Positions 10,206 to 16,435 of a stretch of 64,000 nt of DNA are shown in pieces. The notes under the pieces are model-generated. The model was not told where the DNA came from. It searched no databases and saw nothing but the letters and a program-made list of their open reading frames with translations. The translations under genes and the position numbers were made by a program. Numbering within the stretch: position 1 is the first letter of the stretch; each line of letters starts with the position of its first letter. The stretch lies in assembly GCA_023015825.1 (NCBI GenBank), contig JALKAW010000001.1, positions 744,001 through 808,000 of the forward strand, in the 5' to 3' direction. This DNA comes from Flavobacteriaceae bacterium S0862 (GTDB lineage: Bacteria; Bacteroidota; Bacteroidia; Flavobacteriales; Flavobacteriaceae).

Positions 10206-10859
10206 ATGATCCTTCATGATTTTAGTAAAGAAAATTCAATTTTAAATCAGTTTATTGCTGAATTAAGAGATGACAATATCCAAAAAGATGCCATGCGCTT
10301 TAGGAAAAATATTGAGCGAATTGGAGAGGTTCTTGGTTATGAATTAAGCAAAACCTTGAATTATAAAGATAAAAAAGTAGAAACTCCTTTTGGTCAAAAG
10401 ACGGTTTCAATGCCTCAAAATAATCTTGTTTTGTGTTCCGTTTTACGCGCAGGTTTACCTTTGCATCAAGGACTTTTAAATTACTTTGATAAAGCCGAAA
10501 ACGCATTTATTTCGGCATACAGACACCATAGAGATCATCAAGATGCTTTTAAGGTTATTGTAAAATACTTGGCTGCTCCATCTTTAACCAATAAAACACT
10601 TGTGCTTACAGATCCAATGTTGGCTACAGGTAAAACTCTGGAAAACGTTTATAGTGCATTAAAGAAGCATGGTATTCCAAAACAAATACACATTGTTTCA
10701 GTTATTGGTTCAAAATCTGGTGTGGAATATGTTAAAAACATTTTTCCAGAAGACGCACATTTATGGATAGCCACAATCGACGATACATTAAGCAGTAAAG
10801 GTTATATAATTCCTGGACTTGGCGATGCTGGAGATTTATCATTTGGTCTAAAGCTTTAG
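10206..10859 (+). CDS. upp: Uracil phosphoribosyltransferase
   Basis: A 217-residue cytosolic enzyme converting uracil and PRPP to UMP. The PRPP motif is LVLTDPMLATGKTL near residue 133 and the uracil-binding C terminus is GYIIPGLGDAGDLSFGLKL, close to the PGLGDAGDR signature. The Arg usually found after GDAGD is replaced by Leu, a point to note. Length matches the family. Last gene of the plus-strand operon from 7589; it converges on the candidate RNA at 10876-11577 and no plus-strand terminator with a U tract follows it. Confidence 0.88.
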   Translation: MILHDFSKENSILNQFIAELRDDNIQKDAMRFRKNIERIGEVLGYELSKTLNYKDKKVETPFGQKTVSMPQNNLVLCSVLRAGLPLHQGLLNYFDKAENAFISAYRHHRDHQDAFKVIVKYLAAPSLTNKTLVLTDPMLATGKTLENVYSALKKHGIPKQIHIVSVIGSKSGVEYVKNIFPEDAHLWIATIDDTLSSKGYIIPGLGDAGDLSFGLKL

Positions 10860-10883
10860 ACAAATACCATATAAAACAAAAAA

Positions 10884-10907
10884 AACGGGAAGCTTATGCC
10901 TCCCGTT
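10884..10907 (-). terminator. Hairpin 4 of the RNA, with U tract (intrinsic terminator)
   Basis: On the minus strand AACGGGAGG, loop CATAAG, CTTCCCGTT, then TTTTTTGTTTTAT. The poly-U lies only on the minus-strand side, so it ends the candidate RNA rather than the upp operon. Relative to hairpins 1 and 3, one A-U pair is replaced by G-C and one by a G-U wobble. Confidence 0.75.
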
Positions 10908-11012
10908 CCAGAAGAGATTAAATTGTTAGAAAACCTAATGGTTTATTAGCTCTTAAAACTCTTCATGACTTCCTAAATTACCAAAACTGGTAATTAAGGC
11001 CTGTGTTTTAAA

Positions 11013-11040
11013 GAAACAGGAAGTTTTGACTTCCTGTTTC
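11013..11040 (-). repeat. Hairpin 3 of the RNA
   Basis: GAAACAGGAAG, loop TCAAAA, CTTCCTGTTTC on the minus strand: a perfect 11-bp stem identical to hairpin 1 but with a different loop. It is followed by TTTAAAACAC, only a weak U run. Confidence 0.75.
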
Positions 11041-11193
11041 TTCTGAAGACTTTAATTTAGTAACCTTTTCTAATCGCTAATATGCAATCATTACTGATTA
11101 AAATTAGCTTTTCAGTTAAAAAAAACAGCTTCAAACTCTCCACCTACGGTAGGCTTTAGCATTTTGTAATGATAAAACCTATATGCTTTATAA

Positions 11194-11221
11194 AAAGCAG
11201 GAAGTCGAAACCTCCTGCTTT
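11194..11221 (-). repeat. Hairpin 2 of the RNA
   Basis: AAAGCAGGAGG, loop TTTCGA, CTTCCTGCTTT on the minus strand. Position 8 of the stem is G-C instead of A-U, and position 2 is a G-U wobble, so pairing is kept despite base change. Confidence 0.75.
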
Positions 11222-11371
11222 CCTGAAAAGTTCAATTATATTATTTCTCCTACAGCACTTCCAATAATTCTTTATTACTAAAAAACCATTAGAACCATAA
11301 GCCAAACTATAGCTTTGAACTCCTCATAACAGATTAAGCATTTTTCAACGTTTAACCTGAATGTTTTATAA

Positions 11372-11399
11372 GAAACAGGAAGCCGAAACTTCCTGTTTC
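11372..11399 (-). repeat. Hairpin 1 of the RNA
   Basis: GAAACAGGAAG, loop TTTCGG, CTTCCTGTTTC on the minus strand, an 11-bp perfect stem. Copies 1 to 2 and 2 to 3 are spaced 177 and 182 bases; 3 to 4 is 129. Confidence 0.75.
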
Positions 11400-11612
11400 C
11401 CTTAAAGAGCTTAATTTCATTATCTAATTAATCAATATCCAAAACAACTTTATTGCTAAAGGCATCTTAAAAAATTAATGTCACAAAATAATAATTTTAA
11501 ACTCTATTATGATCTATAGGGTCTTAAGATCTATATTTTCGAAATGCATCGGTATTTTTAAAGAACTTTTTAATTATAGTGCTAATATATATTATGTTCC
11601 CTTTATTTAAAA

Positions 11613-11624
11613 TGACCTAGGTCA
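11613..11624 (-). promoter_or_regulatory. Fnr-like box driving the candidate RNA
   Basis: Perfect palindrome TGACCTAGGTCA, the most divergent core of the set but still TGA-N6-TCA. The -7 element TATATTAG on the minus strand is at 11582-11589, spacing exactly 23. No comparable -7 element exists on the plus side. Confidence 0.75.
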
Positions 11625-11657: not shown

Positions 11658-14039
11658 TTAAACGGAAACTAATTTACTTTCAGCTTTATTAATATTGTCT
11701 ATACCTTGTAATAAGGCGTCTGGATTAAATGATATGCTGTTAATTCCTTTTTCTACCAAGAAAGAAGCGAATTCTGGAAAATCACTTGGTGCCTGACCAC
11801 ACAATCCTATTTTGGTTTTACTTCTGTTCGCTTTTTCTATGGCCATAGCAATCATTTTTTTTGTTGCTGCATCATTTTCATCAAAAAGTGTTGCCATTAA
11901 TTGTGAATCTCTATCAACACCTAAAGTGAGTTGTGTCAAATCGTTAGAGCCAATAGAAAAGCCATCAAAAATTTCAGCAAATTCTTCAGCTAAAATAACA
12001 TTACTTGGAATTTCGATCATTACATAAATTTCTAAACCTTTGTCGCCTTGTTTCAGGCCATTGTCTTTCATTATTTTAATGACTTTTTTACCTTCCTCCA
12101 ACGTTCTACAAAAAGGCACCATTACTTTTACATTGGTTAAGCCCATTTCATTTCTTACTTTTTTTAATGCTTCACATTCCAGTTTGAAGCCATTTATGTA
12201 AGATTTACTATAGTATCTTGCTGCTCCTCTAAAACCTAACATGGGGTTTTCTTCTTTAGGTTCAAAGAATTCACCTCCAATTAGATTAGCATACTCATTG
12301 GTTTTAAAATCGCTTAAACGCACAATGACTTCTTTAGGGTAAAAAGCCGCAGCAATGGTAGCGATACCTTGAGACAACTTATCAATAAAATAGTCCTCTT
12401 TGTTTTTATAAGATTTAGTAAGCTCTTCAATAGTTGCTTTTGTTTTTTTATCCTTCACTTTATTAAATTCAACCAATGCCATAGGATGCACTTTTACCGA
12501 ATGTGTAATAATAAATTCCATGCGTAATAGACCTACACCACTATTTGGATAATAAGATAGCTGAAAGGCTTTATCTGGATCTGCTAAAATTAATTTGGCT
12601 TCAGTTTTTGGCAGTGGTATGTTGCTAAAATCGATTGCTTTTTCTTCATAAGAAAGCTTACCTTCATAAATGTATCCTATTTTCCCTTCAGCGCAGTTTA
12701 AAGTGATTAATTCTCCGTTTTTAATTGTTTTAGTTGCGTTGTTACAGCCTACAATAGCAGAGACTCCCAACTCTCTGGAAACGATTGCTGCATGACTTGT
12801 TCTTCCTCCTTTATTGGTGATAATTCCTCCTGATTTTTTTAAAATTGGATCCCAATCTGGACTAATAGTATCTGTAACTATAATATCTCCAGGTAGTAAT
12901 TTATCTGCATCTTTTGTTGATGTTAATAGTTTTGCCCTACCAACCGATATTTTAGTTCCAACGGCATTTCCTGTGGTTAATATTTTCCCTTTTTCAGTTA
13001 GTTTATATTCAATTAATATACTTTTGTTTTTTGAATGGTGCACTGTTTCTGGACGTGCTTGAATTATAAACAATTGGTTGGTAATTCCATCTTTTGCCCA
13101 TTCAATATCCATTGGTTTTTTATAATGTGTTTCTATTATTAAAGCCCATTGTGATAGTTTAATAACCTCATCATCATTTAAAACAAACGCTTCTTGTTTT
13201 TCTTTGGGTGTATCAATGTTTATAATGGAATCATGACCATTAGACTTGTCGTAAATCATGATTTTATCTTTATCGCCAATTTTTTTCTGAATCAATGGAA
13301 AATATCCTTGCTTTAAGGTTGGTTTAAAAACATAAAAGTCATCTGGGTTTACTGTACCTTGAACAATATTTTCACCTAATCCCCAAACACCTGAAAAAAG
13401 CATTACATCTTCAAAACCAGATTCAGGGTCAATAGTAAAACCAACACCTGAACAACCTTTATCTGAGCGAACCATTTTTTGTACACCAACCGAAAGAGCT
13501 ACTTCACTGTGCTTAAACCCTTTTTCCTCTCTATATTTTATTGCTCTGTTAGTGTATAGTGAAGCAAAGCATTTTTTTACAGCATCCAATAAGGCATCTT
13601 CTCCTTTAATGTTTAAAAAAGTTTCATGTTGCCCAGCAAAACTGGCATCAGGGAGGTCTTCGGCTGTGGCACTGCTACGTACTGCGACATCAATATTGCT
13701 TTTACCAGAGAGTTCTTTGTAAGCTTTTTTAATTTGAACTAATAACTTTTCCGAAAACTTTCCTTTCAATATTAATTCTCGTGCTTGAGCACCAATGCTA
13801 TTAAGGTTGGAATAAGTGTTTCTATCAAGATTGCCAAGTAACTCTTTTAATTTATTAGTGAGGTTATTTTCTTTTAGAAAAGTCCAAAACGCATAAGATG
13901 TTGTAACAAAACCATCTGGTACTTTAATGCCTTGCGATGTTAATTTATTATACATTTCGCCTAGAGATGCATTTTTGCCTCCAACTTCAGGAATATCTTT
14001 AATAGTTATTTCTTTGAATACTTTTATATATTTCCGCAT
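11658..14039 (-). CDS. ppsA: Phosphoenolpyruvate synthase
   Basis: A 793-residue pyruvate, water dikinase: pyruvate + ATP + water to PEP + AMP + phosphate. The N-terminal ATP-grasp part has GGKNASLGEM near residue 20, DVAVRSSATAEDLPDASFAGQ near 120 and a FIIQARPET end. The swivelling phosphohistidine domain has GGRTSHAAIVSREL (catalytic His). The C-terminal PEP/pyruvate barrel has MLGFRGAARY, the SIGSNDLTQ loop and the catalytic Cys in GLCGQAPSD near 755. Third gene of the operon usp, membrane protein, ppsA led by the box at 15346. PEP synthase in an oxygen-limitation regulon points to gluconeogenic or energy adjustment. Confidence 0.95.
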   Translation of the reverse strand: MRKYIKVFKEITIKDIPEVGGKNASLGEMYNKLTSQGIKVPDGFVTTSYAFWTFLKENNLTNKLKELLGNLDRNTYSNLNSIGAQARELILKGKFSEKLLVQIKKAYKELSGKSNIDVAVRSSATAEDLPDASFAGQHETFLNIKGEDALLDAVKKCFASLYTNRAIKYREEKGFKHSEVALSVGVQKMVRSDKGCSGVGFTIDPESGFEDVMLFSGVWGLGENIVQGTVNPDDFYVFKPTLKQGYFPLIQKKIGDKDKIMIYDKSNGHDSIINIDTPKEKQEAFVLNDDEVIKLSQWALIIETHYKKPMDIEWAKDGITNQLFIIQARPETVHHSKNKSILIEYKLTEKGKILTTGNAVGTKISVGRAKLLTSTKDADKLLPGDIIVTDTISPDWDPILKKSGGIITNKGGRTSHAAIVSRELGVSAIVGCNNATKTIKNGELITLNCAEGKIGYIYEGKLSYEEKAIDFSNIPLPKTEAKLILADPDKAFQLSYYPNSGVGLLRMEFIITHSVKVHPMALVEFNKVKDKKTKATIEELTKSYKNKEDYFIDKLSQGIATIAAAFYPKEVIVRLSDFKTNEYANLIGGEFFEPKEENPMLGFRGAARYYSKSYINGFKLECEALKKVRNEMGLTNVKVMVPFCRTLEEGKKVIKIMKDNGLKQGDKGLEIYVMIEIPSNVILAEEFAEIFDGFSIGSNDLTQLTLGVDRDSQLMATLFDENDAATKKMIAMAIEKANRSKTKIGLCGQAPSDFPEFASFLVEKGINSISFNPDALLQGIDNINKAESKLVSV

Positions 14040-15382: not shown

Positions 15383-16435
15383 TTAGTAAATATCTTTAAG
15401 TTTTTGAAGCTCCAAAATTTTAATATTTCTACCTTCAATAGCTATAAAACCTTGTTTTTTAAAATCGGACATGGTTCTTATCAAGGTTTCTGTAGCTATT
15501 CCTGCAACACTTGCCAAATCACTACGCGAAATTTTTATGGGATCGTCTGGTTTACGATTTAATTTTTCAGCGAATTTTAAAATAGTATTAGCGGTTTTTT
15601 TGTTTACCGAACTGTAGGCCATTTGCAATAATTGATTTTTTATACCTGTAAGATCGTTTGTTAGTAGCTGTATAAGCTCTAAAGCTATTTTATGGTTTGT
15701 GTCGAGTAAATTTTTGAGATCATTTTTTAAAATACCAACCATTTCTACATCCTTAATAGCAGTTGCTGTTTCTTCATAAGGTGTGTTTTGGGTAAAAGAT
15801 AAATAGCCAAATAAATCGTCTTCTTTATATAATCCTGTAGTGAGTTCTTTACCAAGTTCGTCAAGTTTATGGCACTTTACAACACCTTTGCTTATTAAAT
15901 AAATATAATTGGAGTGGTCTCCTTCTTTATAAATTATTTCATCTTTTTGATATTTAAATTCCTCGCCATAATCAAGAATATAATTTTTAAAATCGTTTAA
16001 TGTTTTAATGTCACTTTCATCGGTCTCTGCGTTGTTTTTGTTTTTATCTCGTTCGTCTTTTAATATAGAAGCTTTTGCCAAACGACTTTCGATAGCGCTA
16101 ATTAAATCATCTTCACTAAAAGGTTTGGTTATATAGTCGTCGGCACCTAAATTCATACCTTTTCTTATATCTTGGTGTTCAGTTTTTGCCGATAGAAAAA
16201 TGAATGGAATGTATTTTGTATCACTGTTTTTTGATAGTGCTTCGAGTACACCATAACCATCTAATTCTGGCATCATAATATCACATACTATAATATCGGG
16301 CAAAATACTTTTTGCTTTTTCGACACCAATTTTTCCATTTGAAGCTGAAATCACATTATAATTAGAAAGTTCTAATAATTCGGCAGTATTTTCTCTTAAA
16401 ACTGTATCGTCCTCGATTAATAAAATAGTCTTCAT
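15383..16435 (-). CDS. Response regulator fused to Crp/Fnr-type DNA-binding module
   Basis: A 350-residue regulator with three parts: a CheY-like receiver (residues 1-120; acidic pocket E8-D9-D10, phospho-acceptor D52, K104), a cyclic-nucleotide-binding-like beta barrel (about 155-260) and a winged helix (about 275-350). The recognition helix reads TETLIRTMSDF (E316, R320). Fnr has VETISR at this place, so the Glu and Arg that read TGA are kept while the Fnr Ser is Ile. There is no Fnr-type N-terminal cysteine cluster, so signal input should come by phosphorylation from the kinase at 16432, whose stop overlaps this ATG by 4 bases. It is the best candidate to bind the TGA-N6-TCA boxes of the window (inference). 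Confidence 0.88.
   Translation of the reverse strand: MKTILLIEDDTVLRENTAELLELSNYNVISASNGKIGVEKAKSILPDIIVCDIMMPELDGYGVLEALSKNSDTKYIPFIFLSAKTEHQDIRKGMNLGADDYITKPFSEDDLISAIESRLAKASILKDERDKNKNNAETDESDIKTLNDFKNYILDYGEEFKYQKDEIIYKEGDHSNYIYLISKGVVKCHKLDELGKELTTGLYKEDDLFGYLSFTQNTPYEETATAIKDVEMVGILKNDLKNLLDTNHKIALELIQLLTNDLTGIKNQLLQMAYSSVNKKTANTILKFAEKLNRKPDDPIKISRSDLASVAGIATETLIRTMSDFKKQGFIAIEGRNIKILELQKLKDIY

Follow-up and report, generated by a model that had tools for sequence, protein, structure and literature searches.

A putative noncoding RNA of tandem folded units behind an oxygen-type switch in Flavobacteriaceae

A candidate repeated structured RNA between upp and ppsA

A 64,000-nucleotide (nt) stretch of the genome of Flavobacteriaceae bacterium S0862 (the window) contains, on the minus strand of positions 10876-11624, what appears to be a genuine and hitherto undescribed noncoding RNA made of repeated folded units. 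The gene spans about 700 nt and comprises a box of the CRP/FNR type, a -7 promoter element, a boxA-like leader, four tandem units and a terminator. It lies between the convergent genes upp (plus strand, 10206-10859) and ppsA (minus strand, 11658-14039). The order on the minus strand is box TGACCTAGGTCA, 23 nt, TATATTAG, 15 nt, GTTCTTTAAAA, a leader hairpin, the four units and the terminator. The predicted transcript runs leftwards from about 11577, a start placed by promoter spacing alone, to about 10878, and is most likely one RNA of about 700 nt. A preliminary description of the same DNA had proposed, on this strand, an RNA element that repeats and covaries behind an FNR-type box, and the present analysis supports it.

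The four short hairpins of that description are present, with cores at 11399-11372, 11221-11194, 11040-11013 and 10907-10884 and core starts 178, 181 and 133 nt apart. The stem changes of the preliminary description were confirmed: copies 2 and 4 each have an A-U pair replaced by G-C and also carry a G-U pair, and the loops vary. The restriction of a strong U tract to the last hairpin also held, this being the only one called terminator-like (two overlapping calls, 0.4 expected). Beyond the preliminary description, each short hairpin proved to belong to a larger unit, as its part B. A hairpin A of 58-103 nt (99-103 nt in units 1-3 and 58 nt in unit 4) precedes each B hairpin, and a third hairpin, C, joins one unit to the next (Table 1). 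The suggestion of four tandem small RNAs was not supported as worded; because the window has a single box promoter, no strong U tract in the inner hairpins and a boxA-like leader, one long RNA is more likely.

The minus strand folded with -221.5 kcal/mol, compared to -147.7 kcal/mol in shuffled sequences (z -12.7, 20 shuffles), and the plus strand was weaker (-160.6 kcal/mol, z -8.1, 20 shuffles). In 10 relatives chosen from 40 arrays, the fold z ranged from -5.7 to -16.4 and the sense strand was the stronger one in each.

Table 1. Predicted features of the candidate RNA gene and a candidate regulator in the window
Feature	Positions	Strand	Basis
CRP/FNR-type box TGACCTAGGTCA, palindrome	11613..11624	-	exact sequence match; class enrichment; recurrence in relatives
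-7 element TATATTAG	11582..11589	-	23 nt downstream of box; recurs in leader alignment
boxA-like element GTTCTTTAAAA in leader	11556..11566	-	sequence; about 11-21 nt after inferred start
Leader hairpin ATAGATC...GATC	11511..11534	-	predicted folds and leader alignment
Unit 1, long hairpin A1, apical loop CUUUA-GCAA-UAAAG (GNRA type)	11406..11505	-	folding; family-level covariation
Unit 1, hairpin B1 (copy 1 of preliminary description), UUCG loop	11370..11401	-	fold and covariation
Linker hairpin C1	11330..11359	-	fold only
Unit 2, long hairpin A2	11224..11326	-	folding; R1 126 bits, though unit was in R1's own training set
Unit 2, hairpin B2 (copy 2), UUCG loop	11192..11223	-	fold
Linker hairpin C2	11150..11181	-	fold only
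Unit 3, long hairpin A3	11044..11142	-	fold
Unit 3, hairpin B3 (copy 3)	11010..11043	-	fold
Linker hairpin C3	10972..10999	-	fold only
Unit 4, short A hairpin	10910..10967	-	fold; G033 array likewise ends in short unit
Unit 4, hairpin B4 (copy 4), terminator-like, T run behind	10882..10909	-	terminator prediction
Response regulator, cyclic nucleotide (cNMP)-binding and Crp-type helix-turn-helix domains, candidate regulator	15383..16435	-	domain search; helix ATETLIR

Covariation of the units in relatives

Two covariance models were built. R1 comprised 14 units from the window and from the genomes G002, G003 and G004 (same genus) and G033, and two-sided changes were found at 8 of its 30 pairs; R2 comprised 35 units from 35 genomes. 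In a MAFFT alignment of 35 units, 24 of 28 pairs showed two-sided changes (12.4 in shuffles), with 113 two-sided cells (35.9 in shuffles) and 93.9% of the cells paired (83.5% in shuffles). Pairing fell to 43-53% when the partners were slid by 1-3 columns, and the covariation score was 0.465, compared to 0.250 in shuffles and at most 0.124 in the slid versions. Two-sided changes affected 8/8 pairs of the main base helix of hairpin A, 5/5 of its second helix, 2/3 of the closing helix and 9/12 of hairpin B. The preliminary description had named sequence kept with stems lost in relatives as the outcome that would speak against the element; the opposite was observed, the stems being kept by covariation. 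Across relatives, GNRA loops were found in 33 of 84 A-side loops (72 folded units) and UNCG loops in 25 of 72 B loops.

The 35-unit set was drawn from 45 sources. Near-duplicates (L032, L033), second loci of a genome (L074, L096, L097) and L079, which had no listed match despite a match in the genome search, were left out, as were L101-L104, for which no firm rule was applied.

Hairpins downstream of the promoter

A structure-blind hairpin test avoids the bias that arises when units are selected by a model. A promoter-only pattern (box, -7 element and GTTCTTT) was searched over the genome collection and gave 105 stretches holding 112 matches. Most stretches come from genera that we take to belong to Flavobacteriaceae, and four are titled Crocinitomicaceae, Ectothiorhodospiraceae, Lachnospiraceae and Clostridiales. 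A unit lay downstream, on the same strand and within 900 nt, at 78 of the 112 sites; this comparison took 150 of the 177 matches of one model search and all 63 of another. Three sites were too short for the hairpin test. Among the remaining 109, a tetraloop hairpin of at least 10 bp was present between +195 and +285 at 63, against 0.25 expected from block shuffles, and the same test in an upstream interval found 0 (sites with 300 nt upstream). A model match accompanied 58 of the 63 hairpins and was absent from 5, and the loop was UUCG in 31. The third rung from the loop was A-U in 21, C-G in 20, U-A in 14, G-C in 3 and G-U or U-G in 5.

The T tract was interrupted after inner B hairpins (mean 5.68 T of 9, 34 hairpins) and reached a mean of 6.86 T of 9 after the last B (42 hairpins), a difference that fits read-through of the inner hairpins and termination at the last. 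Some arrays have a separate terminator and extend beyond their last B. A shared tail, GGCTATTAAT, was seen behind the array in 15 of 103 cases (L067, L072, L077, L087, L111, L118, L173 and others).

Arrays hold 1-5 units by model matches. A strict hairpin count, which includes some C hairpins and from which promoters of identical sequence were dropped, gave two hairpins in 30 of 103 arrays, three in 18 and four to six in 14, most commonly spaced 170-199 nt apart. Units seem to be duplicated as wholes, because their number varies within the genus (4, 3, 3 and 4) and units 2 and 3 of G004 are near-identical by eye.

The promoter and its candidate regulators

The box and the -7 element are correctly spaced (23 nt), as the preliminary description stated, and box, spacing and stems recur in relatives. 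We take TATATTAG to be of the Bacteroidetes -7 type TAnnTTTG. A box variant, TGATATATATCA, occupies the same place in G002, G003, G004 and G033, and 35 promoters with box and -7 element 22-24 nt apart stand before RNA units. Two main box forms were seen: TGATATATATCA in 16 of 103 arrays, including those of G002, G003 and G004 of the window's genus, and TGA(C/T)CTAGGTCA, the form of the window itself, in 25. Several box promoters in series, each ahead of units, occur at L154, L137, L139 and L182.

Boxes of the class TGAYN4RTCA are enriched in the window (positions 1-64000), with 24 matches compared to 4.4 expected and none of 100 shuffles as high; several precede usp, ribonucleotide reductase and other genes. 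For these reasons the 64-kb window looks like a CRP/FNR-type regulon island.

The CRP-type response regulator of Table 1 is encoded by the fourth gene upstream of the RNA. The same genome encodes an FNR-like protein at L253 (239-amino-acid open frame, N-terminal CxxC, helix ATESAIR), and either protein could bind the box. The response regulator was found in 16 of 60 relatives (E 1e-80). A good RNA match was found in seven of these 60 (G000, G002, G003, G004, G033, G012 and G036), and all seven encode the regulator; a regulator gene is less than 200 nt from the RNA in G012 and G036. Nine regulator-bearing genomes among the 60 had no clear RNA. One of these, G030, perhaps holds a divergent copy: a weak R2 match (L263 5598-5740, E 0.0018) lies behind a small gene at the expected position. 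Weak matches were also found in two genomes without the regulator, G021 (R1 only, E 0.0016, no R2 match) and G046 (R2, E 5.7e-4).

A boxA-like leader element

The window has six promoters with a box and a -7 element at this spacing, and GTTCTTT follows the RNA promoter only; the other five lack the word. Among 103 such promoters in 45 sources, GYTCWTT was found within 34 nt at 26 of the 35 that stand before RNA units and at 4 of the 68 others (Fisher p 7e-13, relatedness ignored). Two of these four, at L098 and L105, also reach units about 300 nt away.

The rRNA leader of the same genome carries AAAAGTTCATTAAACATATTG 142 nt upstream of 16S, and three same-genus genomes with a 16S match have it at 142-145 nt. 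Of 27 rRNA leaders listed for this genome and its relatives, some of which share one genome or are incomplete, 22 have GYTCWTT within 400 nt and five do not. Furthermore, GTTCTTTAAAA has the same 11 letters as the boxA of the CRISPR (clustered regularly interspaced short palindromic repeats) array of Legionella pneumophila Lens, quoted in PMC7862264, where boxA raised expression along an array. We read the leader element as a boxA on its observed sequence and promoter association; Nus proteins would presumably bind it.

Distribution and genomic neighbourhood

When 60 relatives were searched at the DNA level, 22 had some match; most matches were short and marginal, and the long ones were in G002, G003, G004 and G033. 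A search of the family with covariance models had been proposed in the preliminary description: R2 matched 62 of 397 family genomes and 52 of 237 genera (E 0.001), and R1 matched 69 of the 397 (E 0.01). Hosts of model matches include Gaetbulibacter, Pontimicrobium, Algibacter, Winogradskyella, Maribacter and Arenibacter. R1 matched six genomes of a phylum sample of 296, five of them in the family and one outside (E 0.002), and R2 matched 12 of an order sample of 296, seven in the family and five outside (E 3.9e-5 to 7.5e-4); the matches outside the family were weak. In G018 (L257), of another genus, the flanking genes are about 100 nt apart and R2 has no match. We read this locus and that of the same-genus genome G001 as empty sites.

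The CRP-type response regulator lies at most three genes upstream, in the same direction, at 25 of 40 related loci (hand count), and at 21 of these 25, usp genes lie at most three genes downstream in the same direction (hand count). Such loci typically run kinase, regulator, usp, small gene, RNA, usp genes; at the remaining 15, the neighbours differ or the contig ends. The ppsA and upp genes of the window are local neighbours: G002 has no ppsA beside the RNA, G004 has a 36-amino-acid ppsA remnant, and in G033 two usp genes lie on either side of the RNA. By eye, an apparent upp remnant lies behind the array at L066. A beta-CASP nuclease-like protein is encoded at 284-1657 of the window; its best NCBIfam scores, to the Cas14-type MBL and aCPSF1 models, were both below the cut-offs.

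Seventeen loci were picked for a gene behind the array. There the next gene runs in the same direction and T runs follow the hairpins; a box of its own lies between array and gene in 16 of the 17, and the idea that the array is a leader of the next gene was set aside. Coding sequence was also rejected, the longest sense ATG frame having a median of 16.5 amino acids and a maximum of 57 in 40 arrays.

Comparison with known RNAs

The Rfam search proposed in the preliminary description (Rfam 15) found nothing at the gathering score in the window and, across 13 related loci, five tRNA matches and nothing else. The best match of the region at E up to 10, the L20 leader, had 30.9 bits against a gathering score of 58.7 and aligns for the most part with the final hairpin, the T run behind it and A/T-rich sequence; it was set aside as chance. 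No description of this RNA was found in a literature search by title and abstract opening, which covered few subscription journals or preprints and no supplements. The family looks new, and it looks like a noncoding RNA behind an oxygen-type switch.

FnrS of Escherichia coli is a short small RNA (sRNA). It shares with the element an FNR-type box promoter, noncoding character and a terminator, low-oxygen induction being presumed here, and differs in that the element has about 700 nt of tandem long hairpins and a boxA-like leader. Its Rfam model gave no gathering match in the window or the 13 related loci and was not among the 27 matches of the region at E 10. LhrC is a tandem sRNA family of several similar copies in series that are separate genes; the serial copies are shared, whereas here there is one box promoter in the window. 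Long noncoding transcripts led by boxA, namely rRNA operons and CRISPR arrays, are described by Stringer et al. 2020 as cited in a passage of PMC7862264. Like the present RNA, they carry a boxA-like element near the start of a long transcript that is not translated; the present RNA is neither of the two, having a low-oxygen-type box and covarying units. Flavo-1 (RF01705) and 6S-Flavo (RF01685), like the element, are structured noncoding RNA motifs of Bacteroidetes, as listed in a table of PMC2864571. Both were below the gathering score in the window and the 13 related loci and not among the 27 region matches at E 10. Rfp18 of Flavobacterium psychrophilum, described in PMC9723704, is likewise a conserved structured flavobacterial sRNA.

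Discussion

We consider it rather probable that the element is a low-oxygen-induced, antiterminated, multivalent structured RNA, its regulator, antitermination and function being deduced from the features above. When oxygen is low, the box would be bound by FNR or by the CRP-type response regulator encoded nearby, and the promoter would be switched on; box and spacing recur in relatives, and the regulator and signal are presumed. The boxA early in the RNA would load an antitermination complex of the NusB/S10 type, as in rRNA operons, which the boxA-like element and its promoter association suggest. Antitermination would let the polymerase cross the inner terminator-like hairpins and continue through a long untranslated RNA. 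This RNA would fold into tandem A-B units joined by C hairpins and capped by stable tetraloops, with covariation as evidence for A and B and folding only for C. From the sequence, transcription would end at the last B hairpin or at a separate hairpin behind it. Each unit may be a binding module for a partner, either a protein or the ribosome, and repetition would let unit number set valency or dose. This idea comes from the variation of unit number among relatives and from the conservation of stems and tetraloops amid loop and linker sequence that mostly varies. Multivalent binding is favoured over seed pairing because conservation falls mostly within stems and stable loops, which the repeats multiply.

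Several observations weigh against this interpretation. The distribution is patchy: 335 of the 397 family genomes have no R2 match at E 0.001 (strict filters), and in the same-genus genome G001 (L256) the flanking genes are about 107 nt apart and the RNA is absent. Repetition is not universal, since the strict rule gives one hairpin in 31 of 103 arrays and none in 10, and the 3' tail is common to only 15 of the 103. The units used for covariation were chosen by a model of the same structure, three of them from its training set. No unit was found at 34 of the 112 promoter-pattern sites, and 57 of 213 model matches were not tied to such a promoter, many lying on the opposite strand of an array. 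The boxA-like word is missing or degenerate at 9 of the 35 RNA promoters, several of which hold near-misses such as GTTCCTT or GTTCATA, and these 35 promoters are not independent by descent.

The strongest competitor, which we find rather unlikely, is a trans-acting base-pairing sRNA, or a precursor of several, that is induced under low oxygen and pairs with mRNAs of aerobic functions. It would resemble FnrS, an RNA under positive control of FNR and ArcA that base-pairs with mRNAs to repress them (PMC10993149). The box promoter and terminator agree with such an RNA, and the tail shared by some arrays (GGCTATTAAT, 15/103) might be unpaired; on the other side, the widely shared word of the leader is boxA-like, much of the conservation lies in stems and tetraloops, and a short seed RNA would have neither this length nor repeated units, all of which argue weakly against it. 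The long near-duplexes of the A hairpins, together with the beta-CASP-type nuclease gene at 284-1657, would suit a precursor cut by RNase III or by that nuclease into short stable RNAs whose yield the repeats raise; the A arms are short in unit 4 and in unit 2 of G033, and we judge this origin improbable.

A dispersed repeat, of the repetitive extragenic palindromic (REP) or miniature inverted-repeat transposable element (MITE) type, or a terminator cluster devoid of RNA function, would likewise be palindromic, repeated and intergenic, and the 3' arms of the inner hairpins are T-rich. Such repeats occur as many scattered copies, whereas all own-genome matches are at this locus, and G089 and G296 have two to three loci. 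One strand is favoured, the array has its own promoter, covariation extends to A as well as B, and the structure-blind hairpin result contradicts a simple form of this explanation, which is very hard to maintain. We give equally little credit to the idea that the array is an attenuator or long 5' leader belonging to a gene beside it. The usp genes at most three genes downstream in the same direction, in 21 of 40 related loci, would suit it; upp, the next gene in the window, is convergent, and the box that separates array and next gene in 16 of 17 loci speaks against it.

Returning to the antiterminated, multivalent RNA, we tentatively extend it to a lineage-wide modular RNA, switched by oxygen and antiterminated in the rRNA style, distinct from seed-type sRNAs. 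During arrest under low oxygen, its tandem long hairpins, capped by GNRA and UUCG loops, might serve as a multivalent scaffold or sponge that binds either the ribosome or an RNA-binding protein, with a capacity tuned by unit number. This extension is possible and we hold it with less conviction than the general reading.

Flavobacteriaceae are abundant polysaccharide degraders in the sea in which few RNAs have been studied, and they gain here a candidate conserved RNA whose putative oxygen switch and boxA-dependent read-through can readily be tested. If the interpretation is true, antitermination of the rRNA type would extend from rRNA and CRISPR arrays to a stress RNA.
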